Source: Alphaproteobacteria bacterium
Lineage (GTDB): Bacteria > Pseudomonadota > Alphaproteobacteria > Sphingomonadales > Sphingomonadaceae
Length of the DNA stretch: 40,098 bases
Direction: 5' to 3'
Assembly (NCBI GenBank): GCA_018823325.1
Contig: JAHJIJ010000013.1
Span: 1-40,098 of the forward strand
A model generated the notes under the pieces. It did not search any database and was not told the origin of the DNA. It saw nothing but the letters and a program-made list of their open reading frames with translations. The translations under genes and the position numbers were made by a program. Positions 23,511-40,098 of this stretch are shown one piece after another; within the stretch, counting starts at the first letter, position 1, and the number at the start of each line of letters is the position of its first letter.

Positions 23511-23807
23511 ATGGCGAGTGAAGAACAGCCCCTTCCGGATGGCACAATCATTGTCGAACTGGCGCGTTCGGGGATTGTGCTCACCGTGTCGCCCGGCCAG
23601 TCGATCCTCGATGCGGTGCGCGAGGCGGGCATTGCCGCGAGCTCGAGCTGCGAACAGGGGACATGCGGCGCCTGCGCGACCGAAGTGCTCGAGGGCACCC
23701 CGGATCATTTCGATGCCGTGCTCAGCCCGCAGGAGAAGCGGGAGGGCAAGGTGATGATGATCTGCTGCTCAGGCGCGCTGACCGACCGCCTCGTTCTGGA
23801 CCTTTAG
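23511..23807 (+). CDS. Plant-type [2Fe-2S] ferredoxin
   Basis: 98-aa stand-alone ferredoxin. Ligands are C47, C52, C55 and C85 in SCEQGTCGACATEV and MMICCSGAL, the C-x4-C-x2-C-x29-C spacing of plant-type ferredoxins. The sequence looks like the isolated C-terminal electron-transfer domain of the reductases of vanillate demethylase/phthalate dioxygenase systems. It probably donates electrons to the Rieske oxygenase 146 bp downstream. No flavin reductase domain is attached, so a separate reductase would be needed. Confidence 0.92.
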   Translation: MASEEQPLPDGTIIVELARSGIVLTVSPGQSILDAVREAGIAASSSCEQGTCGACATEVLEGTPDHFDAVLSPQEKREGKVMMICCSGALTDRLVLDL

Positions 23808-25310: not shown

Positions 25311-26399
25311 TTGATTCGCAATTTGCTGTCCGCAATCGCCCTGAGCCTGGCGGGCCTCGCCTTTGCCGGGCCGGCCCATGCTGCCGAACAGGAGAAGATC
25401 GTCGACACCGGCTGGACCGATGTCGGCGAGACCGGATACGCCACGAAGCGCCTTGTCCTCGCCTCCGCCTGCCCGGAAGCCTGCCCTTGGGGCGAGCTGG
25501 GCGAGTTCGTGCGCGATGCGATGGCGCCCGAGGGCTATGAGATCATCCTGTGCCGCAATTGCAACCGCACCGAGGGCCCGCGCGTGGTCGCCAAGGCCTC
25601 GCTGCCGCCGCCGCTCAAGGAAGGCGACATTCGCCATGGCACGACGGAGCGGATCAACGCACCCATCGATTTCGGCATTACCGAAGCCTCGATGATGGCC
25701 TGGGCCTATCGCGGCGAGCATATCTACCAGAAGGACGGCCCTGCCCCGCATCTGCGCCTGATCGCGCGGATCGAGGACCCGACCTATCTGCTCGTGGCGA
25801 TCAAGCCTGAGCTGGGCATCACCAGCCTCGCGGAGATCCGCGAGCGCAAGCTGCCGGTGCGCATTCTCACGGACATGCAGCCGAGCGAGGCGCCGGTGCT
25901 CGAACATTACGGGCTGGACAAAGCCAGCGTGGAAAGCTGGGGCGGATCGATCGATCGCCCGCATGACGTGACCGCGGAAACGCCGTTCGACGTCGTCATT
26001 TCCAGCCTCGCAAGCCCCGCTAATAACCCTGAATCCTCCTTCTGGACGACGATCATGGTCGCCCATGACCTCAAGTTCCTCGATCTGCCGGAAGAACTGC
26101 TCGACCGGCTGGTGAAGGAGGCCGACATGGTCCGCACCACGGCGCGCTGGGGCGTGTTGCGCGGCGTCGATCGCTCGATCAAGACCGTCGGCCGCTCGGG
26201 CGAAGTCGTCTTCGCACGCGCCGACATGCCGGACGAGATCGCTTATGCCGCCGCCCGCGGCATCGACCGCGCCCGTGGCGAGCTCAAATGGTTCGTGCGG
26301 CCTTATTCCATCGATCCGCGCACGGTGGGCGATGGCAAGGGCGTGCCCCTGCATCCCGGCGCTGCCCGCTATTATCGGGAGATGGGCTACATCGATTGA
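25311..26399 (+). CDS. TAXI-type (NMT1-like) periplasmic solute-binding protein
   Basis: 362-aa exported protein with a clear signal peptide (MIRNLLSAIALSLAGLAFAGPAHA, cleavage after AHA). The mature part looks like the TAXI family of TRAP-transporter binding proteins; the closing VPLHPGAARYYREMGYI is characteristic. Start codon TTG at 25311 with GGGGAG upstream. No TRAP membrane subunits (DctQ/DctM type) are nearby; instead it is followed by a DoxX-like membrane protein and an MFS transporter. A pair of cysteine-rich motifs (ACPEACPW and LCRNCNR) early in the mature protein is notable for an exported protein. Confidence 0.82.
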   Translation: MIRNLLSAIALSLAGLAFAGPAHAAEQEKIVDTGWTDVGETGYATKRLVLASACPEACPWGELGEFVRDAMAPEGYEIILCRNCNRTEGPRVVAKASLPPPLKEGDIRHGTTERINAPIDFGITEASMMAWAYRGEHIYQKDGPAPHLRLIARIEDPTYLLVAIKPELGITSLAEIRERKLPVRILTDMQPSEAPVLEHYGLDKASVESWGGSIDRPHDVTAETPFDVVISSLASPANNPESSFWTTIMVAHDLKFLDLPEELLDRLVKEADMVRTTARWGVLRGVDRSIKTVGRSGEVVFARADMPDEIAYAAARGIDRARGELKWFVRPYSIDPRTVGDGKGVPLHPGAARYYREMGYID

Positions 26400-26460
26400 T
26401 TAGGCGGCTCGCAAGGGCCGGAGAATGCAAAACGCGCTCGCCAATCAGAAAGAACCAGTA

Positions 26461-27084
26461 ATGTCGTCGTCTCCCAAGCCGCTTAAAGCCGCGTTCCTTG
26501 TCCCGGCCGCCATCACGGGCGCGATCGCGATCTATCTCGCCCTCGGCCAGTTCGACACGTTCATGTTCTTCGGCTTCCCGATCCTGGCGGGCATTGCGGG
26601 TGCGCTCATTCTGAGACGCCTCGACCCGAAGCGCACGACGGCGGACCATGTGACCGACGCCATGCGCATCTATTTTGGCCTGCACCTCATCTGGTCGTCC
26701 TCGCGCTACTGGCTCACTGACATGCAGCCGGTCGTCCCTCACCCGATCGGCGGGCCGTTCATCCAGTCGTTGCTCGACATGGGCCTGTTCCCCGGCATCA
26801 AGGCAATGGAGGGCGTTGTCGGGATCATTCTGCTGACCAACCGGTTCGTGCCGCTGATGCTCGTGCTGCAGGTGCCGACCAGCTTCACGATCTTCTATCT
26901 CAACACCTTCATTACCGGCGCGCCGCGCCAGCTCATCACCGGGCCGCTGGAGATCGGCGTGAACTGCGCGCTGCTGCTCGCCTATTTCCGCTACTATCAG
27001 CCTTTCCTCACTGCGCGCGCTTATGCGGCGCCGCCCCGCTTCATGGGGGAAAGCGCCATCGACGCGCGCGACGCGACGTCCTGA
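26461..27084 (+). CDS. DoxX-like membrane protein A
   Basis: 207-aa protein with about five or six hydrophobic helices and the segments VTDAMRIYFGLHLIWSSSRYWLTDMQP, MEGVVGIILLTNRFVPLMLVLQVPTSFTIFYLNTFITG and LLLAYFRYYQPFL. It is a close paralogue of the protein at 34881-35510 and more distantly of that at 31298-31855. Function is not established; the helical pattern is DoxX-like. The ATG at 26461 aligns with the paralogue start; 26425 is an alternative. It lies between the TAXI and MFS genes, suggesting a transport or membrane redox role. Confidence 0.78.
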   Translation: MSSSPKPLKAAFLVPAAITGAIAIYLALGQFDTFMFFGFPILAGIAGALILRRLDPKRTTADHVTDAMRIYFGLHLIWSSSRYWLTDMQPVVPHPIGGPFIQSLLDMGLFPGIKAMEGVVGIILLTNRFVPLMLVLQVPTSFTIFYLNTFITGAPRQLITGPLEIGVNCALLLAYFRYYQPFLTARAYAAPPRFMGESAIDARDATS

Positions 27085-27157
27085 CCACGCAATCCTGAAC
27101 CCGCAAAAGCCGACACAAGATCGACAGAACGCCTGACTTACGGAGAGAGAGACCAGA

Positions 27158-28540
27158 ATGGCATCCTATACCGACGCAGCCGGAGCCGGCACGCCAGCGC
27201 AGGGCCCAGCACCGGGCACGGTCTCCACTGATCTCGGCACGGCGATCGACGATGCACCCTGGAGTCCGTTCCAGAAGCTGCTGCTCGGCTGCTTCGCTTT
27301 GGTCTTCGCGGTTGATGGCCTTGCCAATCAGTCGCTCGGCATCGTGCTGCCCGCTCTCATCGAGGATTGGGGCACGCCGCGCGCGTCTTTCGCGCCGGTC
27401 ACGGCGGCCAATCTCGCCGGCGTGGCATTCGGCTCCGTCATCGGCGGCATGCTGGGCGACAAGATCGGGCGGCGCTGGGCGTTGATCGCCGCGATCTTCC
27501 TCTTCGGCCTGATGACGGTGGCGGGCGGCCTGACGCAGGACGCGACGCAGCTGCTACTGGTGCGCTTCGTTGACGGCCTCGGCATCGGTGCGGCCATCCC
27601 CAACGGCGCAGCCCTGATCGCGGAATTCACGCCCGAGAAGCGGCGCGGCCGGGCCATCGCCATCGGCATGGTGTTCATCCCCATCGGCGGCATCATCGCC
27701 GGCGGCCTGGGGGCCACACTGCTGGAGCTGTTCGGCTGGCGCACCTTGTTCTTCGTCGCCGGCAGCCTGCCGATCCTTGTCGCGCTTGCCTTCGTCACCT
27801 TCCTGCCGGAATCGCCGAGCTTCCTGCTCCGTGCCGGCCGGCATGAAGAGCTGGCACGGCTGCTCAAGCGCTGCCGGATCTCCTACGATCCGGCCCATCG
27901 CTTCGATGCGCCGCCACCGGCCACCACCATGACCGCGCCGCTGCGCCTGCTGCTTTCACCTGCCCTGCGCCACCAGACGCTGCTGCTGTGGGGCGGCTTC
28001 TTCACCTGCCTGATGGCCTCCTACACGATCTTCAGCTGGGTGCCGACGATGCTGAGTACGCTCGGCTTCGACCTCACCATGACCAGCCTTGGCATTACCA
28101 CCTTCCACATGGGCGGCGTGGTCGGGGCGCTGATCAGCGGCATCATCCTTGATCGCGTCGGCTTCAGCCGCACGCACATGGCACTGGCAGGCGGGGCTGC
28201 CGTGCTGGCCGCCATATTGGCCATCATGCTGGGCAGCGATGTCGTGTCTGCGCTCATCATCCTGCCGGTGATGATGGCGCTCGGCTTCTGCATCGCCGGG
28301 CTGCACAACACGCTCTACACGCTGGCGGCGACATCCTACCCAACCGATGCGCGTGCGACCGGTGTCGGCGTCGCGTCGGCCACGGGGCGGCTGGGCGCAG
28401 TGCTCAGCTCCTTCACCGGCGTGATCTCGCTCGATCTGGGCGGTTCCTTCGCCTTCTTCGCGGTGGTTGCCGTGCTGCTCGCGCTCTGCGGCCTCGCCGG
28501 CTACGCCGCCCGCGCCAAACGCAAGGCCGCCCTCGCTTGA
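27158..28540 (+). CDS. MFS transporter, aromatic acid:H+ symporter type
   Basis: 460-aa, 12-helix transporter of the major facilitator superfamily. The loop GDKIGRRWA, DGLGIGAAIPNGAALIAEFTPEKRRGRA and DGLANQSLGIVLPALIEDW match the AAHS family (PcaK/BenK/MhpT-like), which imports aromatic acids with protons. GGAGAGAG precedes the ATG. The N-terminal 30 residues are Ala/Gly/Pro-rich and cytoplasmic. It likely imports the acid released by the neighbouring esterases. Confidence 0.92.
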   Translation: MASYTDAAGAGTPAQGPAPGTVSTDLGTAIDDAPWSPFQKLLLGCFALVFAVDGLANQSLGIVLPALIEDWGTPRASFAPVTAANLAGVAFGSVIGGMLGDKIGRRWALIAAIFLFGLMTVAGGLTQDATQLLLVRFVDGLGIGAAIPNGAALIAEFTPEKRRGRAIAIGMVFIPIGGIIAGGLGATLLELFGWRTLFFVAGSLPILVALAFVTFLPESPSFLLRAGRHEELARLLKRCRISYDPAHRFDAPPPATTMTAPLRLLLSPALRHQTLLLWGGFFTCLMASYTIFSWVPTMLSTLGFDLTMTSLGITTFHMGGVVGALISGIILDRVGFSRTHMALAGGAAVLAAILAIMLGSDVVSALIILPVMMALGFCIAGLHNTLYTLAATSYPTDARATGVGVASATGRLGAVLSSFTGVISLDLGGSFAFFAVVAVLLALCGLAGYAARAKRKAALA

Positions 28541-28580
28541 TCGGCCCGGAAACCTTGCCCATTCGACCAAGGAGGCTCGC

Positions 28581-30071
28581 ATGACATCGCTCACGAACAA
28601 AGGCCTGCGCCGCGTTATGCTGACCGCGCTGCTCCTCGCTGGCGCCACGCCGCTGGCGGCGCAGGGCAATGCTGCGCCTCAGGTCGAGATTGGCCAGGGA
28701 GCCTTGCGCGGTGTGCAAGAGGATGGCGTGCGCAAGTTCCTCAACATCCCGTTCGGCGCATCCACGGCCGGGGAGCGCCGCTGGAAAGCCCCTGCCCCCG
28801 CCTCCGGCTGGAGCGGCGTGCGCGATGCGACGCAGTTCGGCCCGATCTGCCCGCAATGGCGCCCGCCAGTCGATCAGCGACCGATGAGCGAGGACTGTCT
28901 TTCGGTGAACGTCTGGACGCCGGCGGACCGCAAAGGCCCACTGCCGGTGATGGTCTGGATCTATGGCGGCGGCTTTCTTGGCGGCTCCAACCGCGAGCCG
29001 GCCTATGACGGCACGGCGCTGGCAAAAATGGGCGTGGTGCTGGTGACGCTCAATTACCGCATCGGGCCGCTCGGCTTCATGGCGCATCCAGGGCTGACGG
29101 CCGAAGCGCCCTACAAGGCCTCGGGCAATTACGGCATTCTCGACCAGATCGAGGGGCTGAAATGGGTGCGGGACAATATCGCGGCCTTCGGCGGCGATCC
29201 GGGCAATGTGACCGTATTCGGCGAGTCCGCCGGCAGCACCGCGATCAGCATTCTTCAGGCCTCGCCACTCGCGAAGGGTCTGTTCCACCGCGCAATTGGC
29301 GAGAGCACCTCGCAATTCGATCCGGATGGCGGCCTCGTCGGGCGCAAGGATATGCGCGAAGCGGAAACCTATGGCGCGGACTATGGCAAGAAGCTCGGTG
29401 CGGAAACAGTCGCCCAGCTTCGCGCCCTGCCGATGGACGCCTTCACCAAGGAACTGACCTTCTTCTGGCCCACCGAGCGCGACGGCCATGTTCTGCCGGA
29501 CATCGTCTACAACATCTTCGCAGCAGGAAAGCAGAATGACGTGCCGACGCTGGTCGGCGCCAATTCGATGGAAGGCTCCACGATCCGCAAGGACTGGGTC
29601 AAGCGGACCGACGAGAACGCCGCCGATTATGACCGCATCTATGGCGGCTTCGAGGATCAGCTGCGCCAGTCATCCACCGATGCCGTCCAGTGGCAGATGC
29701 GCAGCTGGGCCAAGCTGCAGGCGGAGACCGGCAAGGCAGGCGCGTGGCTCTACTGGTTCGACCAGCCCTGGCCGGGCAAGCCGGAGCTGGGCGCTTTTCA
29801 CGGCAATGAGATCGTCTATGTGTTCCGCAACCTGCAGGTCGAGGATCAGCCCTGGCAGGCTGAAGACCACAGGCTTTCGGAACTGGTGGCGAACTACTGG
29901 GTGAATTTTGCCCGCAACGGCAATCCCAATGGCCCCGGCCTGCCGGAATGGCCGCGCTATGATGATGCTGATCCCAAGGTCATGCGCCTATCGCCTGAGC
30001 CGGCGGTCATCGGCACCCCGCGCGCAGAGGCGCAGGCCTTTCTCGACGACTATTTCGACAAGCGTCGCTGA
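28581..30071 (+). CDS. Exported carboxylesterase, type B
   Basis: 496-aa serine esterase of the carboxylesterase type-B family. Signal peptide MTSLTNKGLRRVMLTALLLAGATPLAAQ. Catalytic features: the nucleophile in VTVFGESAGSTAIS, the acid residue in GANSMEGSTI, the His in FHGNEIVYVF, and the oxyanion loop YGGGFLGGS. ATG at 28581 has AAGGAGG upstream. It ends the plus-strand operon and likely acts in the periplasm on esters; the released acid would be a substrate for the MFS importer just upstream. Confidence 0.95.
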   Translation: MTSLTNKGLRRVMLTALLLAGATPLAAQGNAAPQVEIGQGALRGVQEDGVRKFLNIPFGASTAGERRWKAPAPASGWSGVRDATQFGPICPQWRPPVDQRPMSEDCLSVNVWTPADRKGPLPVMVWIYGGGFLGGSNREPAYDGTALAKMGVVLVTLNYRIGPLGFMAHPGLTAEAPYKASGNYGILDQIEGLKWVRDNIAAFGGDPGNVTVFGESAGSTAISILQASPLAKGLFHRAIGESTSQFDPDGGLVGRKDMREAETYGADYGKKLGAETVAQLRALPMDAFTKELTFFWPTERDGHVLPDIVYNIFAAGKQNDVPTLVGANSMEGSTIRKDWVKRTDENAADYDRIYGGFEDQLRQSSTDAVQWQMRSWAKLQAETGKAGAWLYWFDQPWPGKPELGAFHGNEIVYVFRNLQVEDQPWQAEDHRLSELVANYWVNFARNGNPNGPGLPEWPRYDDADPKVMRLSPEPAVIGTPRAEAQAFLDDYFDKRR

Positions 30072-30078
30072 AATTATC

Positions 30079-30104
30079 GGGCGGCGCGCCGAAGTACGCC
30101 GCCC
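30079..30104. terminator. Hairpin between convergent esterase genes
   Basis: GGGCGGCG (30079-30086) and CGCCGCCC (30097-30104) form a perfect 8-bp stem with a 10-nt loop, 7 nt after the carboxylesterase stop and before the converging hydrolase stop. There is no T tract on the plus side and only a weak ATAATTT on the minus side, so termination is plausible but not certain. Confidence 0.5.
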
Positions 30105-30117
30105 ACCCCCCTCCCAA

Positions 30118-31290
30118 CTAGAAGTCGCGTTCCGCCAGCCACCGGGCGATGAAATCGGCGATCAGATGATTGTTCGTCTCGGTCGGGAAGCCGTGCGTAT
30201 TGCCGACGAAGCCATGCTCATCGAGCGGCACGAGATCGACGGGCACGCCCGCGCGCTCAAGGAATTGCGCGGTGCAGTGATCGTAGCTTGAATGATAGGA
30301 CGCGCCGCCGACCAGCACCATCACCGGCACCCGCGCCAGATTGACGAGGCGGGGCATCTCGCCCTTCACGGTCCAGCAGCCGACCTTGTGCGCATCCTGC
30401 GGCGGTTGCTGCTCGATCGGCCCGAAATCGCGCAGGCGCGAGACCGGCGGATCGAATTGCAGGCCCTCATAGGTGATTCCGAAGGGACGAACCACGGGAT
30501 CGCCCGGTGCGCCCATCGGCGGGGCGTTGTAGAAGGGCGGCCCGTTCGGCTCTGCCGCGATGATCGCCTTGACGAGATCTGGCCTTGCGTCCGCGATCTG
30601 CCAACCGCTTGTTCCTGCACGGGAATGCGTAACCAGAATGGCTGGGCCGATCCGGTCCAGCAGCGCCGCGCCGGCCTCACGGTCCAGCCGATCCACATAG
30701 ATGCTTGTCGCCAGCGCATCATCCGGGGCGCCAAAGGGTACCTCGATGCTCGATTGGCGGGCGCGCCGCATATGCTCATAGGCCGGATCGCCGGGCTGAT
30801 TGGTGCCCGGCAGATGCGCCGGCTGGCTCGTCGCAGGCGGCGGCGCGGCCTCGCCTTCCCGCTTGGGCAGGCTGGTTGGCGGCATCAGCTTCGCGCCGTC
30901 CACAACCTCATAATGCGGCGAGCGCCCGAGGGTCGGCCGATCCACGACATAGACGGCATAGCCCTTGCGCAGGAACATCGTGGCCCAGCCCTCGCGTCCG
31001 TCCGGCGTGCTCCAGAAGCTTGCCCCGCTCGAGGCGCCGCCATGGAAGAAGACCAAGGGATAGGGATGCTTCTGCTCGGCCGGGATCTGGAATTCGACGT
31101 ACATCGCCCCGGAGATCACCGGGCCGGATGGCGTTGCCGCTTCCCGCCCGCCGACATAGAAATTGCCCTGCTTCGCAATGACGAGCGGCGCGCGCGATGC
31201 TGCCGATTCTCCCTCACTCGCCCATGCAGTCGGGCAAAGCGAAACCACCGCGGTTGCCAGCGCAAGCGCCGAGAGAAATCTCGCCTTCAT
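30118..31290 (-). CDS. Exported alpha/beta hydrolase, esterase 713-like
   Basis: 390-aa exported hydrolase. Signal peptide MKARFLSALALATAVVSLCPTAWA. The fold is seen in PLVFFHGGASSGASFW (oxyanion HGG), the nucleophile Ser in VTHSRAGTSGW (SxAG variant rather than GxSxG) and the final His in DEHGFVGNTHGF. The arrangement resembles bacterial esterase 713 (PDB 1QLW). An insertion with Pro/Ala-rich sequence lies at residues about 140-170. Last gene of the minus-strand operon, 7 nt after the third DoxX-like gene. Substrate unknown. Confidence 0.85.
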   Translation of the reverse strand: MKARFLSALALATAVVSLCPTAWASEGESAASRAPLVIAKQGNFYVGGREAATPSGPVISGAMYVEFQIPAEQKHPYPLVFFHGGASSGASFWSTPDGREGWATMFLRKGYAVYVVDRPTLGRSPHYEVVDGAKLMPPTSLPKREGEAAPPPATSQPAHLPGTNQPGDPAYEHMRRARQSSIEVPFGAPDDALATSIYVDRLDREAGAALLDRIGPAILVTHSRAGTSGWQIADARPDLVKAIIAAEPNGPPFYNAPPMGAPGDPVVRPFGITYEGLQFDPPVSRLRDFGPIEQQPPQDAHKVGCWTVKGEMPRLVNLARVPVMVLVGGASYHSSYDHCTAQFLERAGVPVDLVPLDEHGFVGNTHGFPTETNNHLIADFIARWLAERDF

Positions 31291-31297
31291 CGTGCCG

Positions 31298-31855
31298 TCA
31301 GCTCCGCAAATAGACTGTGAGATAAGTGATGCCGATCGCCGCAGCCGTCCCCGCGAGTGCCGCGATCCCGTGGATCGTCGGCCGCAAGCGGACGGGCGTC
31401 GGCACGGATGACGCTATGGTTCCGCCCGGCGGACCGGCACTCCAGACCAGCATCGGCCGGTAGCGGTCGAGATAGCCCAGGGACATGATTGCGTTCAGCC
31501 CAATGATCACCGCCGCTACGCCCATGCCGAAGGGCCTGCCATGCGATGCTGTCACGAAGGCGATCATCAGCGTGATCGGCCAGGCCGCGACCACGGCGAG
31601 CGCTGCAAAGAGATCGAGCAACAGTGCCAGGCCAATGACGACCTCGAGCGCCTTCACCATGGCCATCACGCCGGATTCAGCCAGCGCGGGCACAAGGCCC
31701 GGACCCGGCTGGATCGAGCGGTCGAAGTAGAATTCAAACCAGTAATTGAGGCCATGGAACAGGAACCAGCCGCCATAAAGGAACTGGCAGGCATACACGA
31801 AACCGGCAAACGCCGTGCGCTCGCCGGTATGCGGATCGCTTCTGCTCAGCTGCAT
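31298..31855 (-). CDS. DoxX-like membrane protein C
   Basis: 185-aa membrane protein with four to five helices: FAGFVYACQFLYGGWFLFHGLNYWF, MVKALEVVIGLALLLDLFAALAVVAAWPITLMIAFV, GMGVAAVIIGLNAIMSL and a C-terminal helix. It aligns loosely with DoxX-like proteins A and B in the same cluster (shared HGLNYWF/KALEVVIG layout), so it is probably a more distant member. The ATG at 31855 gives a start near the conserved region; the longer frame is shadow of the TonB gene. Function unknown. Confidence 0.72.
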   Translation of the reverse strand: MQLSRSDPHTGERTAFAGFVYACQFLYGGWFLFHGLNYWFEFYFDRSIQPGPGLVPALAESGVMAMVKALEVVIGLALLLDLFAALAVVAAWPITLMIAFVTASHGRPFGMGVAAVIIGLNAIMSLGYLDRYRPMLVWSAGPPGGTIASSVPTPVRLRPTIHGIAALAGTAAAIGITYLTVYLRS

Positions 31856-31884
31856 GTCAGCCCCGTCCGTATTGTCGGCCAAGA

Positions 31885-31915
31885 CGCCGGGCGGAGCCTG
31901 TTGCCCCGCCCGGCG
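31885..31915 (-). terminator. Strong hairpin between the TonB receptor and DoxX-like C genes
   Basis: CGCCGGGCGG (31885-31894) and CCGCCCGGCG (31906-31915) form a perfect 10-bp GC stem with an 11-nt loop, 10 nt after the receptor stop. Only TCTT follows on the minus strand. It could partly terminate transcription or protect the receptor mRNA 3' end, giving higher receptor than downstream expression. Confidence 0.6.
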
Positions 31916-31925
31916 ATGGATATCC

Positions 31926-34796
31926 TCAGAACTTCTTGGAGATCTGGAAGGAGATGTACCGCCCCATCGAGCTGGAATAGCTCGAGTCAAACCGGATCGG
32001 TGTCGCACCGCCCGCATTGACGACCAGCGGCGGCTCGGCATCGAACAGGTTGAGCACGTTCAGCGACATGGCCAGCCCATCGGTGATCATCGATCCGTTC
32101 TCGCCGAAATTGTAGCGCAGGCTGAGATCGAACGTCGTGATCGCATCGATGTCGGTATACTGATCCGGCACGGCAGCGGGCAGGAAGTCCCGCGTAATCG
32201 TGCGCGAATTCACATAGTTGAGGATGCCGGTGCCCGAGAAGCCGCCGATGTCCACCCCTGCTTCCAGTCTGCCGGTGAAGCGCGCGGGATAGCCGAAGTG
32301 GTTCACTTCATCCTTGAGCGCCACACCCGGAACCGGCGAGGTCTTGTAGTGGAGAACATAGTTGGCCCGCGCGCCGAAGCGGAAGTCCACGCCATCGCCG
32401 TAGAGCGTATAATCGAGCGAGATGTCGAACCCGTCCGTCTCCACAATACCGCTGTTGTTGCGGCGGGCATCGACGATGGCGATCATCGTCGTCGGATCGA
32501 CGAGGCCGAGCACCGGCAGCTGTGGGTCCGCCGTGATCTGGTTCCAGTAGGCAACATATTCGGGAAGCGTGAGCGTCGCCTTGTCCGGGAAGTAGACCGG
32601 GTTGAAGACGATGAAGTCGTCATAATTACCCGAGTTCAGCACCGCACCGATCGGCGCGTTATAAGCCGCCGTGTCGACCTTATCCTCATAGACGATGTTG
32701 TAATAAGTGACACTGAAGTTGAGCCCACGCACCAACTCCGGCGTCACGTCAAAACCGACGGACCAGGTCGTGGCGGTTTCCGGCTTGAGGTCCGGGTTAC
32801 CCCCAATCGGATAGACATATTGGAACGAACCGTCGGCAGGCGAGAGGCCAACCGCAGAGCCGCTGCCCGTGCGCGGCAGGAAACCGGCCGTGGCATATTT
32901 GTTCACGTCCACGAGCGAGGGGGCACGGAACGATGTGCCGTAGCTGCCGCGGAACTGGAGCCCCATCATCGGCGCATAAGTGAGGCCGAAGCGAGGGTTC
33001 GTGGTCGATCCCACATCGCTGTACCGATCGTAGCGGACAGCGGCGTTGAACTCGAGCCGTTCGAGGCCGGGACGCGCGTTATCTCCACCGAACAGCGGTA
33101 TATAAGCCTCGGCGTAGACCGAGCGGACGTCTCGCTCGTTCGAGGTCGGGATACCCCCGAAGACGTTCACGTTCGCAGTGCGCGTATTGGAAAGCTGGCC
33201 GTTGCCGAAGAGATAGTCGAAGCGAACTTCGCCACCGACCGAGACGCGCACGTCGCCACCAGGCAGTGAGAAGAGCGAACCGCCTATGTTCGCCGAACCG
33301 CCATAGGTCTGGTTAAACACCTCAAGTTCGGTCTGGGCACGGAATAAGGCCAGCGTGGCCTCCGAATTGCAGTTGAACTGCTCCCCGTCGCAGAAGGGAT
33401 TGAAGAACGGCACGTCCGCAGGCTTCGTTGTGCCCGCGACGGTCGCGCCCAACGCCCGGTTGAGACCGTTGGTGTTGAGCTGGTTCGTCGCGAGGCTGTA
33501 GCCCTTGTTCTCGCTGTAATAAGCATTGACGTTGGCGTTCCAGTTGCTGCTCAACTCCATCTCCAGGCCACCGGAAATGGCCCAGATCTGCTCATAGCCT
33601 TTAATGGTCAGCGGCCCCAGATCCTCAAGGAAGCTGTAGGGCACCGTCAGCGTACCGCTTTCCGGGCAATCGAGCGTGGCGCTGTCATCTACCTTGCCTG
33701 GCGCGCAAGGACTGAACGGGTTGGTGTTCGGGACGGACAGCGTCGCCGTGGAGGCAATGCCGCGATTGGTCAGCTCGCGCCGCGAGAACAGACCGTCGGC
33801 GACGAAGGTCACCGAATCGTCGAAATCCTGACGGAACGTACCGACAACCGTGTGGCGCTCGCCGGACGGAATGGCATCCGCACCGATCCACGCATTCTCG
33901 CGATTGGCTGTGGACGTCAGATCGCCGAGCGTAACGGAGGTGCCGTCCTGCCCTGCCGGGATGCCGAAGATGGAACCGGGCGCGAACTGGACATTGCCCG
34001 GATTGGTGAGCACCGGATTGGGCGCGCCACCATAAGGCGAGAGATCGCTGTTGTAGAGATTGGGGCGATCCGCCGCCTCCAGCGCCGTGCGGTTCTGATA
34101 TTCATAGGCCAGGAAGAAGCCGCCTGTGGACCAGCGACGCCCCAGCGCCACCGAGCCGATATATTCCTCAACGGAATCGGCAAAGCCGGCGCGCGCCTGA
34201 ACTTCAAAGACATTCTCGGGCCGCCGCATGATGAAGTTGACGACGCCGCCGACCGCATCCGAGCCGTAAATTGCCGAGCCGCCGTCGGCGACGACCTCGA
34301 TCCGCTCAAGGGCGATGGACGGAATGTTGTCCGCATCGAACAGCTGGCCGTTGGCACCCTGCGGCGCAACGCGATGGCCGTTCACCAGGCTGAGCGTGGA
34401 TGCGGTGCCGAGACCGCGCAGGTTGATCGACTTCGCAGCGAAGGAATTGAGCGAGGTATTCTGGATGATCGAGCCGCCTTGCTGCTCGTTATTGCCGCCG
34501 AAGTTCACAACCTGGGGCAGCTTGCGCAGCGCGTCATTCGTGGTGCTGACGCCGAGCTTCTCGATCTCCGCGCGCCCGACCGGGATAACCGGCGAACCCA
34601 CCGGAGCGACGCCCTTGATGCGCGTGCCGGTGATGATGATTGCTGCATCATCAGCCTCTTCGGACTGCTGCGGGGCTTCCGCCTCCTGCGCCATCGCGGG
34701 CGAAACACTCGCGATACCCAGGACCAAAGCAGACACCGAAACCGCCAGTTTCGTGCCGAGCCGTTCCCGGACAGACAAAATCCTCGTGTTCATCAT
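31926..34796 (-). CDS. TonB-dependent outer-membrane receptor
   Basis: 956-aa receptor with signal peptide (ending SPAMAQEA), an acidic linker containing AAIIITGTRIKG as likely TonB-box region, a plug domain with SINLRGLGTASTLSLVNGHRVA and IERIEVVADGGSAIYGSDAVGGVVNFIMRR, and a long 22-strand barrel ending in the terminal Phe of SFQISKKF. ATG at 34796 follows GGGGAGGGAGAG; the adjacent in-frame ATG at 34793 is equally possible. Such receptors import siderophores, sugars or, in sphingomonads, many aromatic and lipophilic compounds. Its place among ester hydrolase and oxygenase genes suggests uptake of their substrate. Confidence 0.96.
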   Translation of the reverse strand: MMNTRILSVRERLGTKLAVSVSALVLGIASVSPAMAQEAEAPQQSEEADDAAIIITGTRIKGVAPVGSPVIPVGRAEIEKLGVSTTNDALRKLPQVVNFGGNNEQQGGSIIQNTSLNSFAAKSINLRGLGTASTLSLVNGHRVAPQGANGQLFDADNIPSIALERIEVVADGGSAIYGSDAVGGVVNFIMRRPENVFEVQARAGFADSVEEYIGSVALGRRWSTGGFFLAYEYQNRTALEAADRPNLYNSDLSPYGGAPNPVLTNPGNVQFAPGSIFGIPAGQDGTSVTLGDLTSTANRENAWIGADAIPSGERHTVVGTFRQDFDDSVTFVADGLFSRRELTNRGIASTATLSVPNTNPFSPCAPGKVDDSATLDCPESGTLTVPYSFLEDLGPLTIKGYEQIWAISGGLEMELSSNWNANVNAYYSENKGYSLATNQLNTNGLNRALGATVAGTTKPADVPFFNPFCDGEQFNCNSEATLALFRAQTELEVFNQTYGGSANIGGSLFSLPGGDVRVSVGGEVRFDYLFGNGQLSNTRTANVNVFGGIPTSNERDVRSVYAEAYIPLFGGDNARPGLERLEFNAAVRYDRYSDVGSTTNPRFGLTYAPMMGLQFRGSYGTSFRAPSLVDVNKYATAGFLPRTGSGSAVGLSPADGSFQYVYPIGGNPDLKPETATTWSVGFDVTPELVRGLNFSVTYYNIVYEDKVDTAAYNAPIGAVLNSGNYDDFIVFNPVYFPDKATLTLPEYVAYWNQITADPQLPVLGLVDPTTMIAIVDARRNNSGIVETDGFDISLDYTLYGDGVDFRFGARANYVLHYKTSPVPGVALKDEVNHFGYPARFTGRLEAGVDIGGFSGTGILNYVNSRTITRDFLPAAVPDQYTDIDAITTFDLSLRYNFGENGSMITDGLAMSLNVLNLFDAEPPLVVNAGGATPIRFDSSYSSSMGRYISFQISKKF

Positions 34797-34880
34797 CTCT
34801 CCCTCCCCTTGCGTCCGGATCATTGGCCGGAAACTTGAGCGACCGGCACCTCGCCAGATCGCTGAAAAACCATAGGTATA

Positions 34881-35510
34881 TTAAATGTTATTTGATTTTG
34901 TATAACCATATCGAAAATTGTCGTCAAGGTGATCCTGCCGCTCCCAGGGCGGAGCAGCACGCACCTTGCCGCGCAACATCGGCCGGTAATGGTGGAAATA
35001 GGCCAGCATCAGCAGCACATTGACGCCAAGCTCGGTCGGCCCGGTCAGCAAGCCGCTCAGCCGCGCCGTCACGAACGTGTTGAGATAGAAGATCGTGACG
35101 CTGGTCGGCACTTCCAGCACGAGCGCCAGCGGCACGAAGCGATTGCTGAGCAGCAGCACGCCCACGATACCTTCCACCACCTTGACCGCAGGGAAGATAC
35201 CCGTCGCGAAGAGCGATTCCAGAAACGGCCCGGCAATGGGGTGCTGCGGCGCGCCCGAGGGCTGCATTTCGGTGAACCAGAAGCGGATGCACGACCAGAG
35301 CAGATGCCCGCCGAAATAAATGCGCATCACATCCGTGGCTTGATCGATGGTCCGCCAATCGGGGTTGTTGCGCGTATTCACGACCGCGACCGCGACGCCC
35401 GCAACCATCGGCAGCCCGAAGAAGAGGAAAGAATCGAAACTCAACAGATTGAACGAAACGCCCGCGATGCAGATCAGCACCGCTGCCATGATCTTGGCAC
35501 TGCCACTCAT
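34881..35510 (-). CDS. DoxX-like membrane protein B
   Basis: 209-aa membrane protein, close paralogue of protein A (26461-27084): shared are VMRIYFGGHLLWSCIRFWFTEMQP, VKVVEGIVGVLLLSNRFVPLALVLEVPTSVTIFYLNTFVT and MLAYFHHYRPML. Five or six hydrophobic helices. ATG at 35510 with GGGGGGAGAG upstream. It lies 26 nt after the LLM gene and 84 bp before the TonB gene. The last ten codons are notably AT-rich and may hold part of the receptor promoter. Confidence 0.78.
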   Translation of the reverse strand: MSGSAKIMAAVLICIAGVSFNLLSFDSFLFFGLPMVAGVAVAVVNTRNNPDWRTIDQATDVMRIYFGGHLLWSCIRFWFTEMQPSGAPQHPIAGPFLESLFATGIFPAVKVVEGIVGVLLLSNRFVPLALVLEVPTSVTIFYLNTFVTARLSGLLTGPTELGVNVLLMLAYFHHYRPMLRGKVRAAPPWERQDHLDDNFRYGYTKSNNI

Positions 35511-35536
35511 TCGTCTCTCCCCCCTGCGCTTGCGGC

Positions 35537-36613
35537 TCAGACGCTTCTCAAGCCCGCCTGCACCATCAGCGGGGCGACATCGCGCATCCACGTCGCCAGC
35601 CCCTCCTCGTAATTGACGAACGTGAGCACCACGCCGTCCGCACCAGCCGCCGAGAACTCCGCGAGGCGATCCACGATCTGCGCCGGCGTGCCCACCAGAT
35701 GGACACCACCAAAGCCGCCCAGCACCTTCTGCCGGGCGAGCCGGGATGCCGGATCGTCACCGCGCGGCACCAGATTGGGCGGCATGGCATCCAGCACCGC
35801 CAGATCGCCCTGCTCCTCCAGCACATAATCGCGGAAGCGATTGGCCTCCGCCTCGGTCGGGCGGCAGATCACCCAGGCCGCCAGCCAGATCTCGAAGCTG
35901 CGGCCGAATTCCTCACGCCCCAATTTGCGCAGATCGGCAAAGCGCCGGCGGATGTCCTCCATCGGCTCGCCCTCGCTCACGCTCTGGAAGGCCATGTCGG
36001 CATATTTGGCGGCGAAGCGCGCGCCGGTGCCGGACTGGCCCGCCTGCATAATGGGTGGATGGGGTTTGCCAAGCGGCTTGGGGTTGGACTCGCCCTTCTC
36101 GATGCGGAAGAAATCGCCCTCGAAGTCGAACGGCTCATCGCGCGTCCACAGCAGCTTCACGATGTCCAGCCACTCGGCAGCGTAGCGATAGCGGCTGTCA
36201 TGATCCATCATCGGCGAGCCGAACATGGCGAACTCGGGCGGAAACCAGCCGCACACGAGGTTAAGGCCAAAGCGCCCGCCGGAGACATGATCGGCGGTGA
36301 CCATCTGCTTGGCCGCGACGATCGGATGGATGACGGGCACATGCACGGTCGCGAAGATCTGCGCCCGCTCGGTCACCGCGCCCACGCCGGTGGCCCAGCT
36401 CAGCCCTTCATAATTGGTGCCGCAATAATCGGTCACGCCGCCGAGGCCCTTCCAGCGGGCCAGCGGCACCTGAATCTCAAAGCCCGCCTGTTCGGCCAGT
36501 CCAGCGACCCGCTTGACCGTGGGCCAATCAAGGCGATGGCGCTCGGGCGCGGTGGTGGCGGTGAAGCCGCCATCCAGGTTTGAGCCGAAGATGCCGAGCT
36601 TGAGCCGGTTCAT
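35537..36613 (-). CDS. LLM-class flavin-dependent monooxygenase
   Basis: 358-aa protein of the luciferase-like monooxygenase family, close in pattern to RutA and alkanesulfonate/dimethylsulfone monooxygenases: KLGIFGSNLDGGFTATTAPERH at the N-terminus, VTADHVSGGRFGLNLVCGWFPPEFAMFG, and GARFAAKYADMAF. Such enzymes use reduced FMN supplied by a separate reductase. The ATG at 36613 forms an ATGA overlap with the preceding gene and is preferred to 36622. Substrate unknown; Baeyer-Villiger, N-C or S-C bond cleavage are possible within the family. Confidence 0.92.
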   Translation of the reverse strand: MNRLKLGIFGSNLDGGFTATTAPERHRLDWPTVKRVAGLAEQAGFEIQVPLARWKGLGGVTDYCGTNYEGLSWATGVGAVTERAQIFATVHVPVIHPIVAAKQMVTADHVSGGRFGLNLVCGWFPPEFAMFGSPMMDHDSRYRYAAEWLDIVKLLWTRDEPFDFEGDFFRIEKGESNPKPLGKPHPPIMQAGQSGTGARFAAKYADMAFQSVSEGEPMEDIRRRFADLRKLGREEFGRSFEIWLAAWVICRPTEAEANRFRDYVLEEQGDLAVLDAMPPNLVPRGDDPASRLARQKVLGGFGGVHLVGTPAQIVDRLAEFSAAGADGVVLTFVNYEEGLATWMRDVAPLMVQAGLRSV

Positions 36614-38154
36614 GCGAGCCATTCCCGCAGGGCCGCCCAGTGCCGCGCCGCGCCTTCCTCATGATAGGAGGCATCCGCGATGGCGAAGCCATGATAGGTG
36701 CCGGGATAGACCTCGATACGGTAATCGAGCCCGGCTTCCTCCAGCGACGCCTTGAGCGTGGCGATGTGATCGTCGGTCATGAAGGCGTCCGTCTCCGCAC
36801 AGCCGAAATAATAGCGCGCCTTGCTCGCGGCGAGGCTGCGGTGCGGACTGTCGGGCCGCCCCATGACGAGATGCCCGCCATGGAACACGGCGACGGCGCC
36901 AACGCGATCGGGATGTGCCGCTGCCGTCCACACCGCCATTGGGCCGCTCATGCAATAGCCGACGCAGGACGCCGGACCGGGCGCCACGTCCGGCCGGGCC
37001 GCCAAAGCCGCCAGCCAAGCCCCGGAATCACGCTCGATCGTCTCACGCGTGAGCGTTCCGGCCATGCTGAGCAGCCTGCCGAAGTCAGCAGAGTTCTTGA
37101 CTGACAAGGGCGGATCAAGCGGCGGCCCGAGCCGGTGAAAGAGATTGGGCAGCAGCACCGCATGGCCCTCATCCGCCAGCCGCTGCGCCATCGCCTTGAA
37201 CAGCGGGCGCACTCCCATGATGTCGGTATAGAGCAGCACCGCCGGATGCGGCCCGGCACTACCGCGTGGCGTGAACAGCCAGGCGTCCGATGGCCCGTCC
37301 GGCGTACCGATCCGCAGATGCTCGCCTTCGGCCGCCGGGAGATCAGCCGCCTGAGGTGCCGCAACGCTCGGCGCCTCCCCGAAAGACATGCCGATACCCA
37401 GTGTCTGCCCGCCATCAACGACGATGTTGGCGCCGGTGATGTAGCCGGATTCGTCCGAGGCAAGGAACACTGCGAGCGGCGCGACATCCTCCGGTCGGCC
37501 GACACGTCCGAGCGGCGACGTGCGCACCTGCTTTTGCATATTGTCATTGGGGTCGCGCAGCAGATCAGCAAAGGTTTCGTTGGAAATGAGGCCGGGGCTG
37601 ATGCAGTTCGCGCGAATGCCCAGCGGCCCGCCTTCCAGCGCCAGATGCGCAGTGAGGCCAATGACGCCCGCCTTGGCTGCACCATGCGCCGCCATGGGCA
37701 TGTCGCTGCCCCGCGCGCCGATGATCGAACCGGTATTGATGATCGAGCCACCGCCCCGCGCCACCAGATGCGGCCAGGCCGCGCGCGTGACGTAGAAGAT
37801 GATGTCCAGTTCGTTGCGCATATTGGCATGCCAGGTCGCCGTGCTCATCGAGCTGAGCGGGCCGATCCGGCCATGCGAGGCATTGTTGTAGAGGATGTCG
37901 ATGCCGCCATAGACCTGCGCCGCCTGCGCGACCCAGCGCTCGGCCTCTTCCTCGACGGAGAGATCGACGGGCGCCATGGAGGTCATCTCGCCCCCAGCCG
38001 CGCGCACCATGGCAACGGTCTCGTCAGCCTTTGCGCTATTCAGATCGCAACCGACTACCCGGGCGCCTTCACGCGCGAAGGCCAGCGCGGCGGCACGCCC
38101 TTGCCCTCCGGCCGTCCCGGTAATCAGGGCAATCTTGCCCTCCAGCCTCCCCAT
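36610..38154 (-). CDS. SDR-dienelactone hydrolase fusion protein
   Basis: 514-aa two-domain protein. Residues 1-260 are a short-chain dehydrogenase/reductase: ITGTAGGQGR cofactor motif, NNAS at 90-93, Ser143 in NTGSIIG and Lys161, but the catalytic Tyr position is His157 (MAAHGAAK). Residues 275-514 are a dienelactone hydrolase: Cys401 in GYCMSG, Asp456 and His488 form its Cys-Asp-His triad. The linker is Ala/Pro-rich. ATG at 38154 has AGGAGGG upstream. It is the first gene of the minus-strand operon and may act on a ring-cleavage or lactone intermediate. Confidence 0.92.
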   Translation of the reverse strand: MGRLEGKIALITGTAGGQGRAAALAFAREGARVVGCDLNSAKADETVAMVRAAGGEMTSMAPVDLSVEEEAERWVAQAAQVYGGIDILYNNASHGRIGPLSSMSTATWHANMRNELDIIFYVTRAAWPHLVARGGGSIINTGSIIGARGSDMPMAAHGAAKAGVIGLTAHLALEGGPLGIRANCISPGLISNETFADLLRDPNDNMQKQVRTSPLGRVGRPEDVAPLAVFLASDESGYITGANIVVDGGQTLGIGMSFGEAPSVAAPQAADLPAAEGEHLRIGTPDGPSDAWLFTPRGSAGPHPAVLLYTDIMGVRPLFKAMAQRLADEGHAVLLPNLFHRLGPPLDPPLSVKNSADFGRLLSMAGTLTRETIERDSGAWLAALAARPDVAPGPASCVGYCMSGPMAVWTAAAHPDRVGAVAVFHGGHLVMGRPDSPHRSLAASKARYYFGCAETDAFMTDDHIATLKASLEEAGLDYRIEVYPGTYHGFAIADASYHEEGAARHWAALREWLA

Positions 38155-38255
38155 GCATTCCCTCCTGCGGGCCCTCAGGACGCAAGGCGCGCACATGCAC
38201 CCGCCGGAACCCTCTCGCTGGTCACGATGCTAGGGCGGGCAACAACATCGTGTCA

Positions 38256-38290
38256 ACATTTTGAATGCAGTTTTGACTAAACATTTTGAA
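38256..38290 (-). promoter_or_regulatory. Direct repeats upstream of the SDR-DLH operon
   Basis: ACATTTTGAA occurs at 38256-38265 and 38281-38290, exactly 25 bp apart, with a partial copy (TTTTGA at 38271-38276) between. On the minus strand they lie just upstream of a TTGACA-like -35 (about 38249-38254). Tandem sites immediately before a -35 are typical for an activator. The binding protein is not identified. Confidence 0.5.
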
Positions 38291-39737: not shown

Positions 39738-39788
39738 GCTCGCACTCTCCTTCCACACTCGGGAATCAAGGGCAATCAGCACCCTATT

Positions 39789-39877: not shown

Positions 39878-40098
39878 ATGAAAGAATCACGCACCCCGCG
39901 CGCCGCGAAGAGCCTGTTCCCGCGGCTGGGCATGATCGCGGGCACGTCGCTCATGGCGCTGGTCCTCCCCGCCACAGCCCTCGCGCAGGCAGAGGAAAAG
40001 CCCGACGCCAATCCGGTGCAGATCGATGCCGACGGCACCGTTCACGTGCCCGCCATGAGCGTGCCCGTCTCCAGCTTCCTCACCGATGAAGCCAAGAA
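39878..40098 (+). CDS. Exported protein, N-terminal fragment (possible alpha/beta hydrolase)
   Basis: First 73 codons of a gene that runs off the right edge. After a basic N-terminus (MKESRTPRAAKSLFPR) comes a signal-type hydrophobic stretch LGMIAGTSLMALVLPATALAQA, then NPVQIDADGTVHVPAMSVPVSSFLTDEAK. The start of the mature part looks like exported alpha/beta hydrolases of sphingomonads, but this is a weak guess from a short fragment. ATG with AGAGG upstream. The 14-bp palindrome lies about 75 nt before it. Confidence 0.6.
   Translation, partial: MKESRTPRAAKSLFPRLGMIAGTSLMALVLPATALAQAEEKPDANPVQIDADGTVHVPAMSVPVSSFLTDEAK

Follow-up and report, generated by a model that had tools for sequence, protein, structure and literature searches.

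A sphingomonad gene cluster for the possible uptake, hydrolysis and O-demethylation of ester-linked methoxylated aromatics

Introduction

DdmC and GdmA are aryl-ether O-demethylases acting on dicamba and guaiacol, respectively. The system of Sphingobium sp. SYK-6 comprising ddvT, ddvK, ddvR, ligXa, ligZ and ligY is experimentally established for DDVA (PMC6874591), and its MarR-controlled DdvT/DdvK/LigXa/LigZ set is the closest known system to the cluster reported here. The cluster lies in a stretch of 40,098 nucleotides, hereafter the window, for which a first-pass annotation had proposed a candidate ester uptake and degradation system that it did not recognise as a known pathway. This proposal held in part: among the papers listed in a literature search, judged by titles and abstract openings, none describes the cluster, but the DDVA system is a close analogue of its uptake-plus-O-demethylation half.

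The window shares with the DDVA system a MarR regulator, a TonB receptor, an MFS importer (below the NCBIfam cut-off in the window) and a Rieske O-demethylase, the latter predicted in the window, and SYK-6 belongs to the same genus group. LigB-family and LigXa-like homologues are also indicated by sequence on contig C29, which belongs to the same genome as the window. The window cluster differs from the DDVA system by adding six esterase-family hydrolases, an orphan TAXI protein and DoxX-like proteins, as well as an SdhA-like flavoprotein and an LLM/SDR-DLH pair.

Sequence comparison established the gene families, a synteny across three genera, a continuation in G685 into tannase/feruloyl-esterase-family, LigB-family and LigXa-like genes, and a palindrome confined to the cluster. 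Our preferred reading, with a probability of about one half, is that the cluster takes up an ester-linked methoxylated aromatic, cleaves it with exported esterases, imports the acid and demethylates and oxygenates it inside the cell. The released acids are probably opened by an unusual two-gene oxygenase module.

Results and Discussion

Pfam, NCBIfam and PDB comparisons recovered every gene named in the first-pass annotation, and the set proved both real and wider than described. The two convergent operons were confirmed. The TAXI operon, with intergenic gaps of 25-73 bases, is on the forward strand and encodes, in this order, an orphan TAXI-type periplasmic binding protein with a TTG start (25311..26399), the DoxX-like membrane protein A (26425..27084), an MFS importer (27158..28540) and an exported type-B carboxylesterase (28581..30071; PF00135, 352 bits). 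The facing operon, with gaps of -13 to 70 bases, is on the reverse strand and encodes an SDR-dienelactone hydrolase (DLH) fusion (36610..38154), an LLM flavin monooxygenase (35537..36622), DoxX-like protein B (34881..35510), a TonB-dependent receptor (31926..34823; Plug and TonB_dep_Rec_b-barrel domains), DoxX-like protein C (31298..31855) and an exported alpha/beta hydrolase resembling SulE and 1qlw (30118..31290). Signal peptides of the TAXI protein and of both hydrolases were assessed by eye.

Both operons are adjoined by a MarR-family regulator (21147..21737, forward; Pfam MarR_2, 28.9 bits), an SdhA/FrdA-like FAD flavoprotein (21759..23345, reverse; FAD_binding_2, 153 bits, and Succ_DH_flav_C), a stand-alone [2Fe-2S] ferredoxin (23511..23807, forward; Fer2, PF00111, 56 bits) and a Rieske oxygenase with a GTG start (23954..25057, forward). 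The flavoprotein start, an ATG at 23345, was picked by eye, the longest open reading frame reaching 23444. Beyond the SDR-DLH gene lie a BNR-like protein (38310..39782, reverse), which had no Pfam match and is 78% and 62% identical to homologues in G685 and Sphingomonas canadensis, and a gene for an exported alpha/beta hydrolase that runs off the contig, leaving its 5' part (39878..40098, forward; 66% to G685 residues 1-73).

The Rieske oxygenase returned DdmC (7.9e-62) and then GdmA (8.2e-59) as its best PDB matches, both near full length, and it carries a VanA_C domain. It would thus be an aryl-methyl-ether O-demethylase, stripping an O-methyl group from the imported acid. The window differs from the DdmC and GdmA systems in its electron carrier, a stand-alone Fer2 protein whose neighbour is an SdhA-like flavoprotein. 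No gene for a reductase was recognised in the window; the ferredoxin homologue of S. canadensis forms the C-terminal domain of a 359-residue VanB-like reductase-like frame, which carries the same Fer2 domain. As a relative of that VanB-type domain, the ferredoxin may serve as electron carrier of the oxygenase, while the flavoprotein could act as a substrate dehydrogenase or reductase within the same pathway.

Flavoprotein and ferredoxin are part of the system in all six genomes compared, the flavoprotein being 67-89% identical in G685, Novosphingobium sp. MD-1, S. canadensis, G138 and the Hyphomonadaceae MAG G401. The MarR gene adjoins them in four of the six (the window, G685, MD-1 and G138); the Rieske oxygenase does so in three, with 95% identity in G685 and 77% in MD-1. 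Neither the Rieske oxygenase nor the SulE-like esterase was found in those parts of S. canadensis, G138 and G401 that were read, and G138 has only 45-49% identical oxygenases some 10-20 kb away. The SulE-like esterase gene is present in G685 and MD-1.

The uptake and hydrolysis module is syntenic in the congener G685, in MD-1 and in S. canadensis, that is, in three named genera, and the order DoxB-TBDR-DoxC facing carboxylesterase-MFS-DoxA-TAXI is common to G000, G685, MD-1 and S. canadensis. The grouping is more than chance, as further genera have it in this order too. The TonB receptor, 67-89% identical in MD-1, S. canadensis and G685, would import the ester across the outer membrane; none was recognised in the G401 region. 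The carboxylesterase and the SulE-like esterase would then act in the periplasm, releasing an acid moiety and an alcohol moiety, the latter perhaps a sugar. The MFS protein is nearest to the aromatic acid/H+ symport family (AAHS-like), scoring 294 bits against TIGR00895, under the cut-off of 418.55.

In G685 the cluster runs on into genes for a tannase (PF07519), LigB and LigXa-like proteins, which match the LigB and LigXa_C models, and further esterases. Contig C29 begins with homologues of these continuation genes; it carries 96% identical homologues of the G685 LigXa_C-type and LigB proteins. It also holds homologues of four esterase-family hydrolases, with two more esterases in the window. 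MD-1 has tannase, LigB and LigXa_C genes in the neighbourhood of the cluster, S. canadensis has a tannase gene there, and the LigXa-like oxygenase was found in 5/5 genomes searched (57-96%). Its SYK-6 homologues are a 75% identical protein at 2.105 Mb and a 39% identical one at 0.80 Mb, where, judging from locus tags, the ddv/lig locus presumably lies. As the closer homologue sits away from ddv/lig, the LigXa-like protein is probably a paralogue of the SYK-6 ligXa product.

The nearest solved relatives of the exported hydrolases raise another explanation, that the cluster detoxifies or consumes an ester-bearing secondary metabolite or agrochemical of the mycotoxin or sulfonylurea type instead of plant or lignin aromatics. 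The best PDB match of the carboxylesterase is the fumonisin B1 esterase (8s6d, 6.9e-74), and the second hydrolase matches 1qlw (3.7e-23) and entries of the sulfonylurea esterase SulE (from 5.7e-23). The fumonisin cluster also has a TonB receptor beside a carboxylesterase. However, FumD and SulE are only distantly related to the window hydrolases and imply no substrate for them, PDB relatives mirroring what has been crystallised. Moreover, the tannase, LigB and LigXa-like neighbours and the DdmC/GdmA-like oxygenase speak for methoxylated phenolic acids, and we regard a mycotoxin or agrochemical substrate as rather unlikely. Sterols and polyketide lactones, which the first-pass annotation listed among the compounds to test, found no support here beyond the enzyme families.

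Like the binding proteins of TRAP-TAXI transporters, the TAXI protein carries an NMT1_3 domain (70 bits, cut-off 27), and it scored 60.9 bits against NCBIfam TRAP_TAXI, under the cut-off of 84.35. It differs from those transporters in having no DctM partner within the cluster. Among six draft assemblies, no protein with a DctM domain (the TRAP membrane subunit) was found in G398 and G138, and the other four have one each, outside the cluster. In G195 a relative of the TAXI protein is fused to a carboxylesterase, on account of which we place the TAXI protein next to the esterase: it would keep the freed acid there and pass it to the MFS importer.

The DoxX-like proteins perhaps assist this hand-over. 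They are called DoxX-like only on account of distant homologues of that name and of a structural model of protein B: none of the three matched a Pfam or NCBIfam family, including the DoxX model, apart from one chance-level match (E 0.27). Protein A is homologous to B, which has distant DoxX-named homologues and whose AlphaFold2 model (mean pLDDT 79) suggests NACHO/TMEM35A as best structural match. Protein C has homologues in G685 (80%) and in MD-1 and S. canadensis (about 78%, tblastn). One DoxB relative (L010, 71%) occurs alone.

A perfect palindrome, TATCTTAGCGCTAAGATA, was located by pattern search between the flavoprotein and ferredoxin genes (23447..23464, no strand assigned) and is a predicted MarR operator; if up to 3 mismatches are tolerated, chance would yield 0.02 matches in the window. 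The six genomes, searched in full, contain the pattern TATCTTAGCNNTAAGATA 7 times, always within this cluster: five copies separate flavoprotein from ferredoxin, and two lie upstream of the LLM/SDR-DLH operon, the latter only in G138 and S. canadensis. It is present in five of the six genomes, the whole-genome search of G401 returning none, and the reversed-pattern control matched in 0/6. S. canadensis has the palindrome, with an alpha-L-rhamnosidase gene and not MarR adjoining the flavoprotein. MarR may keep the genes for flavoprotein and ferredoxin silent as long as no acid is present.

These data bear on whether the uptake module, the Rieske and flavoprotein genes and the LLM module are independent functions joined by chance or in a catabolic hot spot. 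Module presence does differ among genomes, and the window's two convergent operons have no significant promoter element in common (an equal or higher score was reached by 198 of 300 shuffles). A search of the window revealed no palindrome upstream of its own SDR-DLH operon, whose promoter region (38197..38285, reverse) contains ATTCAAAATGTTGACACGATG, a sequence that directly precedes doxB in G685 too. On the other hand, sphingomonads have many of these parts in clustered form, as does, in a different order, G401, which groups flavoprotein, ferredoxin, MFS, TAXI, carboxylesterase, LLM, SDR-DLH and one DoxX protein; and in G138 and S. canadensis a single palindrome marks both the flavoprotein/ferredoxin promoter and the LLM operon. 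Mere juxtaposition is therefore, in our judgement, very improbable. On the co-regulation that the first-pass annotation had set as a test, the outcome is mixed, with a shared palindrome in these two genomes and no significant common element in the window's two operons.

The idea of a single coherent set needs to be qualified accordingly. Uptake and hydrolysis recur with oxygenases in several genera, but as two separable modules, and since the presence of the Rieske oxygenase, SulE-like esterase, TonB receptor, LLM and SDR-DLH varies, no single pathway uses all the genes. The LLM was not found in G685 (nearest 30%) or MD-1, nor the SDR-DLH fusion in MD-1; the pair is missing at this locus in both genomes and is best described as an optional two-gene module.

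The LLM protein (Bac_luciferase, 184 bits) is SfnG/RutA-like. Its scores against the RutA (145.8 of 498.3 bits) and SfnG (195.3 of 382.95 bits) models are far below both cut-offs. The RutA oxygen pocket comprises Thr105, Asn134, Val136 and Phe224 (PMC7662398). Among the 120 best LLM homologues listed, the equivalent Thr and Asn are kept in 120, Val and Phe in 119 each, and the pocket Trp likewise in 120, the equivalent of RutA Leu65 being Val in most. The window LLM thus resembles the RutA/DszA flavin-N5-peroxide monooxygenases in its pocket and differs from them in those scores and in having SDR-DLH as operon partner. No flavin reductase was detected among the window proteins scanned.

Both domains of the fusion exceed their Pfam cut-offs (adh_short_C2, 183 bits; DLH, 132.6 bits against 21). 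The Cys/Asp/His triad of DLH is intact in 52/52 fusions. In the SDR domain the Tyr of YxxxK is present in 0/52 (43 His, 6 Arg, 3 Asn) and the Lys in 52/52, so that the domain lacks the catalytic Tyr of classical SDR dehydrogenases.

SDR, LLM and DLH would be the textbook order for an alcohol-ketone-lactone-acid route. The pair could accordingly be a type II Baeyer-Villiger monooxygenase and a dehydrogenase-lactonase converting a cyclic or aryl alcohol of the steroid, terpene or aryl-ethanol kind through ketone and lactone into a hydroxy acid. The two genes are adjacent in all six genomes read, among them G270, where they lie with P450s, TauD, PhyH and a Rieske oxygenase; in G300 they lie with PhyH and sulfatases. 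The company of P450s and other oxygenases would suit such a route. Nevertheless, a plain alcohol dehydrogenase is doubtful because the catalytic Tyr is absent, the 28 PDB matches of the LLM include no diketocamphane monooxygenase, and its pocket is RutA-like, making a Baeyer-Villiger route improbable. Alternatively, and tentatively, the pair may be an undescribed oxygenolytic module for RutA-type cleavage of an ester, lactone or aryl-ketone carbonyl, in which the Tyr-to-His SDR binds NAD and feeds the lactonase, with the TAXI protein as product-binding subunit of the esterase. In our preferred reading of the cluster, in genomes with this second module, LLM would attack an electrophilic carbonyl with flavin-N5-peroxide in the RutA fashion, and the DLH domain would hydrolyse the lactone or ester formed.

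Conclusions

If this reading of LLM and SDR-DLH is true, they would represent a new cleavage module that relies on flavin-N5-peroxides, with SDRs forming a subfamily able to work although the catalytic tyrosine is gone. The fusion of TAXI and esterase would be a case of an enzyme having gained a transporter's binding protein as a subunit. Ester-linked methoxylated aromatics make up a large share of the carbon derived from plants and lignin, and their uptake and opening by sphingomonads is known for few compounds. With its defined genes, its predicted operator and the sequenced genomes of its relatives, the cluster lends itself to studying these steps.

Gene Content, Location and Distribution of the Cluster

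The window, which takes up all of contig C9 (40,098 bases) in a sphingomonad genome of 3.88 Mb, has in its left part a nuo operon and housekeeping genes, among which an exosortase gene (PF09721, 14181-15095) also lies. That genome falls into one genus group with G144, in which the DoxX match has coordinates identical to those of the SYK-6 locus L012. All the genes named in the first-pass annotation were borne out by sequence or profile matches. In order, the cluster has genes coding for a MarR regulator (+, 21147..21737), a flavoprotein (FAD, -), a ferredoxin (Fer2, +), a Rieske oxygenase (RO, +), a TAXI protein (+), DoxX-like protein A (DoxA, +), an MFS transporter (+) and a carboxylesterase (COest, +). 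Leftward from 38154, the minus strand encodes the SDR-dienelactone hydrolase fusion (SDR-DLH, 36610..38154), a luciferase-like flavin monooxygenase (LLM, 35537..36622), DoxX-like B (DoxB), a TonB receptor (TBDR), DoxX-like C (DoxC) and a SulE-like hydrolase. Beyond SDR-DLH come a BNR-like gene (38310..39782, -) and, running to the contig end, the first part of a gene for an exported hydrolase.

The congener G685 carries on one contig the arrays DoxB-TBDR-DoxC-SulE and COest-MFS-DoxA-TAXI-RO-Fer2 / FAD-MarR with 80-95% identity, and the same set occurs in Novosphingobium sp. MD-1 at 64-79%. Since homologues of the window's nuo and housekeeping genes flank the cluster in G685, it occupies one chromosomal place in both genomes. 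Between the SulE-like and carboxylesterase genes of G685 (contig C1, L095:7817-10627) lies a gene for a protein of 936 residues containing Ig-like and serralysin (Peptidase_M10) domains, which the window lacks at the corresponding place. Sphingomonas canadensis showed the arrangement BNR-SDRDLH-LLM-DoxB-TBDR-DoxC / COest-MFS-DoxA-TAXI, followed about 4 kb past TAXI by the flavoprotein gene and a 359-residue frame ending in a Fer2 domain; RO and SulE were not found within the regions read. MarR, FAD, Fer2, LLM, SDR-DLH and a TonB receptor matching at 39-40% were detected in genome G138. The Hyphomonadaceae MAG G401 has, within about 11 kb, FAD, MFS, TAXI, Fer2, COest, LLM, SDR-DLH and a DoxX protein; no TonB receptor was recognised in this region, the one large frame checked there (882 residues) being of the CoA-ligase type.

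Among these six genomes, window included, the flavoprotein and a Fer2 domain were present in all, LLM with SDR-DLH in four and RO beside Fer2 in three. As a counter-example, a fifth DoxB relative (L010, 71%) occurred without the surrounding cluster. A search of 397 family genomes with a cut-off of 1e-100 detected SDR-DLH in 4 (own genome counted), and 2 of 398 phylum genomes matched it at 1e-55 (own again counted), the other match (41%) covering query residues 9-278, i.e., the SDR part only. Among the papers listed in the literature searches, no title or beginning of an abstract described the gene set. A plasmid origin was discarded, as none of 72,556 plasmid records matched SDR-DLH at 1e-60, a single weak DoxX match was returned, and 57 records partially matched the TBDR-to-SDR stretch with none holding 80% of it.

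Homologues indicate that the cluster extends beyond the window. Past the BNR-like gene, G685 encodes an alpha/beta hydrolase, a tannase/feruloyl-esterase-family protein, a second carboxylesterase, a DLH-like esterase, a sugar-type MFS transporter, a metallo-beta-lactamase-fold protein, a LigXa_C-type Rieske oxygenase, a LigB-family protein, an acyl-CoA-dehydrogenase-like flavoprotein and further DoxX-like proteins. Homologues of this continuation (69-96%) were located in the window's own genome at C29:901-19896, and the window's last residues and contig C29 have a segment of the truncated hydrolase gene in common. The first 850 bases or so of C29 (G000:C29:1-900, L122) are phage-like and unrelated to the cluster, and the same hydrolase gene follows; one frame at this start resembles a phage HK97-gp10-like protein. 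The foreign start may reflect an insertion or a chimera at the end of the contig, and because of it a direct join between C9 and C29 is likely rather than proven.

Regulatory Elements

A palindrome, TATCTTAGCGCTAAGATA, was detected at 23447-23464 between the flavoprotein and ferredoxin genes. Searching six whole genomes with two free bases and at most one mismatch returned seven distinct places, one each in the window's genome, G685 and MD-1, two each in G138 and S. canadensis and none in G401, while the reversed pattern used as a control gave no match in the six genomes. The sites in the window, G685 and G138 were known before the search, and those in MD-1 and S. canadensis were new. According to the gene maps, five of the seven lie between the flavoprotein and Fer2-domain genes; of the remaining two, that of G138 immediately precedes SDR-DLH-LLM and that of S. 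canadensis is located upstream of BNR-SDRDLH-LLM-DoxB-TBDR. As the MarR gene adjoins the flavoprotein gene in four of the five palindrome-bearing genomes, we infer that MarR binds the predicted operator TATCTTAGCNNTAAGATA; in S. canadensis no MarR gene adjoins the flavoprotein gene, though the palindrome is there.

A promoter element common to the two convergent operons (TAXI-DoxA-MFS-COest and SDR-DLH to SulE-like) was sought by local alignment against dinucleotide shuffles (n = 300) and was unsupported. In the window, where 198 of 300 shuffles reached the score, nothing significant was common to the promoters of TAXI and SDR-DLH, and MD-1 gave 79/300; in G685 the figure was 7/300, the match being a GC-rich stretch near the gene starts. 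For the co-regulation raised in the first-pass annotation the outcome is mixed: the window's convergent operons lack a shared element, but the palindrome occurs both at flavoprotein/Fer2 and at the LLM operon in G138 and S. canadensis. In place of the palindrome, the SDR-DLH operon of the window has ahead of it the promoter stretch that in G685 directly precedes DoxB, an arrangement suggestive of gain or loss of the LLM/SDR-DLH pair behind a single promoter.

Rieske Oxygenase, Ferredoxin and Flavoprotein

The best PDB matches of the Rieske oxygenase were DdmC and 7qwt, the latter being GdmA of Rhizorhabdus wittichii (PMC12445004), and O-demethylation is therefore its predicted activity. The C-terminal domain of VanB-type reductases is similar to the ferredoxin, whose S. 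canadensis homologue (L112:10096-11175) is indeed the C-terminal domain of the 359-residue VanB-like frame, with Fer2 scoring 48.4 bits at 279-348 and NAD_binding_1 20.3 bits, below the cut-off of 22. On these grounds, the ferredoxin most likely serves Rieske oxygenases, either the neighbouring one or a LigXa-like one, which is encoded in all five genomes searched, and in the other genomes the ferredoxins that stand alone may be truncated reductases. The same S. canadensis reductase led us to drop an SdhAB-like pairing of flavoprotein and ferredoxin.

SdhA, FrdA and L-aspartate oxidase are the closest solved relatives of the flavoprotein. In the alignments the HGxxR motif retains its Arg, but the VQ(Y/F)HPT motif lacks its histidine (both residues being those of fumarate reductase), and the protein is thus probably not a succinate dehydrogenase. 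In S. canadensis an alpha-L-rhamnosidase gene adjoins the flavoprotein gene (L112:4981-7761), a neighbour that may hint at glycosylated phenolic substrates.

Exported Hydrolases, TAXI and DoxX-like Proteins

One exported hydrolase has FumD as its closest solved relative, and the other 4q34, 1qlw and the SulE entries (SulE: PMC10356948). A DctM-domain protein was absent from genomes G398 and G138 and present once in each of the other four searched, in no case inside the cluster, and an 883-residue frame of genome G195 (L102:10356-13007) joins NMT1_3 (121-361) to COesterase (375-862). From this fusion and the DctM results we read TAXI as a binding protein acting with the carboxylesterase.

Across 16 loci, which had been picked for other reasons and partly overlap, 9 of 39 DoxX frames were adjacent to an MFS gene and one was fused to it in frame, too weak a basis to claim DoxX proteins as MFS subunits. 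The fused MFS-DoxX frame, 650 residues long in Sphingobium sp. SYK-6 (L012:8498-10450), has in its vicinity two TonB receptors and a Rieske oxygenase with 65% identity to that of the window. DoxX-like genes also stand in twos to fours beside TonB receptors of 831-851 residues (L097, L098, L099, L100), with a Rieske oxygenase nearby at L097 and L100. Foldseek returned nothing for DoxB at E 0.001, and the VKOR and rhodopsin rows were rejected as structural relatives since they fall in the tied background.

The LLM/SDR-DLH Pair

Alignment of LLM with RutA, with residue correspondence counted by hand off the pairwise alignment, indicated that Thr105, Asn134, Val136 and Phe224 of the RutA pocket (residues as named in PMC7662398) are kept and Leu65 is replaced by Val. 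The best 120 LLM homologues all carry T, N and the Trp that follows, while V is found in 119 and F likewise in 119; in SfnG the RutA Thr is replaced by Ala. Assignment to the type II BVMOs was unsupported by the PDB sequence matches.

SDR-DLH retains the Gly-rich motif, the NAD-type Asp, the Ser/Thr and the Lys. The SDR catalytic Tyr is replaced in all 52 fusions (His in 43, Arg in 6, Asn in 3), each of which has the DLH Cys, Asp and His. Among the matches listed, 68 non-fusion relatives showed His (61) or a gap (7) at the Tyr position, and in more distant SDRs Tyr is possible. Among the papers listed in the literature search, no mention of this Tyr being replaced with histidine, or of an HXXXK motif, was found.

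LLM and SDR-DLH were adjacent in all six genomes read, G270 and G300 among them, and comparison of protein listings indicated that at least 16 of the 52 fusions apparently share a genome with one of the best 120 LLMs, one of them in Pseudonocardia lutea. In G270 (L058) the neighbours of the pair are a Rieske oxygenase, oxygenases of the TauD and PhyH types and two P450s, and in G300 (L059) a PhyH-type gene and two sulfatases; neither a TonB receptor nor TAXI was recognised at these two loci. Judged from such differing neighbours, the pair is portable. An RND efflux operon lies on its other side at both loci. A small glyoxalase-fold protein is encoded near the pair in G138 (L057:12413-13455) and S. 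canadensis (L008:3152-3586), the two being 72% identical, and in G138 a nitroreductase gene comes next, echoing the rut operon.

With the LLM query at 1e-5, no match was found in the 20-kb regions around stand-alone SDRs of MD-1 (L110, His motif) and G928 (L111, Tyr motif) or in the short MD-1 locus L065 (His motif). Adjacency to LLM is therefore established for the fusions only and is not general in the SDR subfamily. P0072 unites an LLM piece and a His-SDR within a single record, but its linker appears frameshifted, and P0188 and P0189 look like assembly chimeras; all three were left unused as fusion evidence.

Comparison with the DDVA System and Possible Substrates

The experimentally known DDVA system of SYK-6 comprises the TonB receptor DdvT, the inner-membrane transporter DdvK, the MarR-type DdvR, LigXa, LigZ and LigY (PMC6874591). 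For uptake and demethylation the cluster would work on the same plan, and it is set apart by its ester hydrolases, the LLM module, TAXI and the DoxX-like proteins. In the text covered of the review PMC12997858, no word starts with "ester", "lactone" or "luciferase". Substrates that fit the tannase, the esterases, the sugar-type MFS (G685 and C29), the rhamnosidase beside the S. canadensis flavoprotein and the LigXa and LigB types would, as a guess, be esters of vanillate-, gallate- or biphenyl-type acids, with sugar esters perhaps among them.
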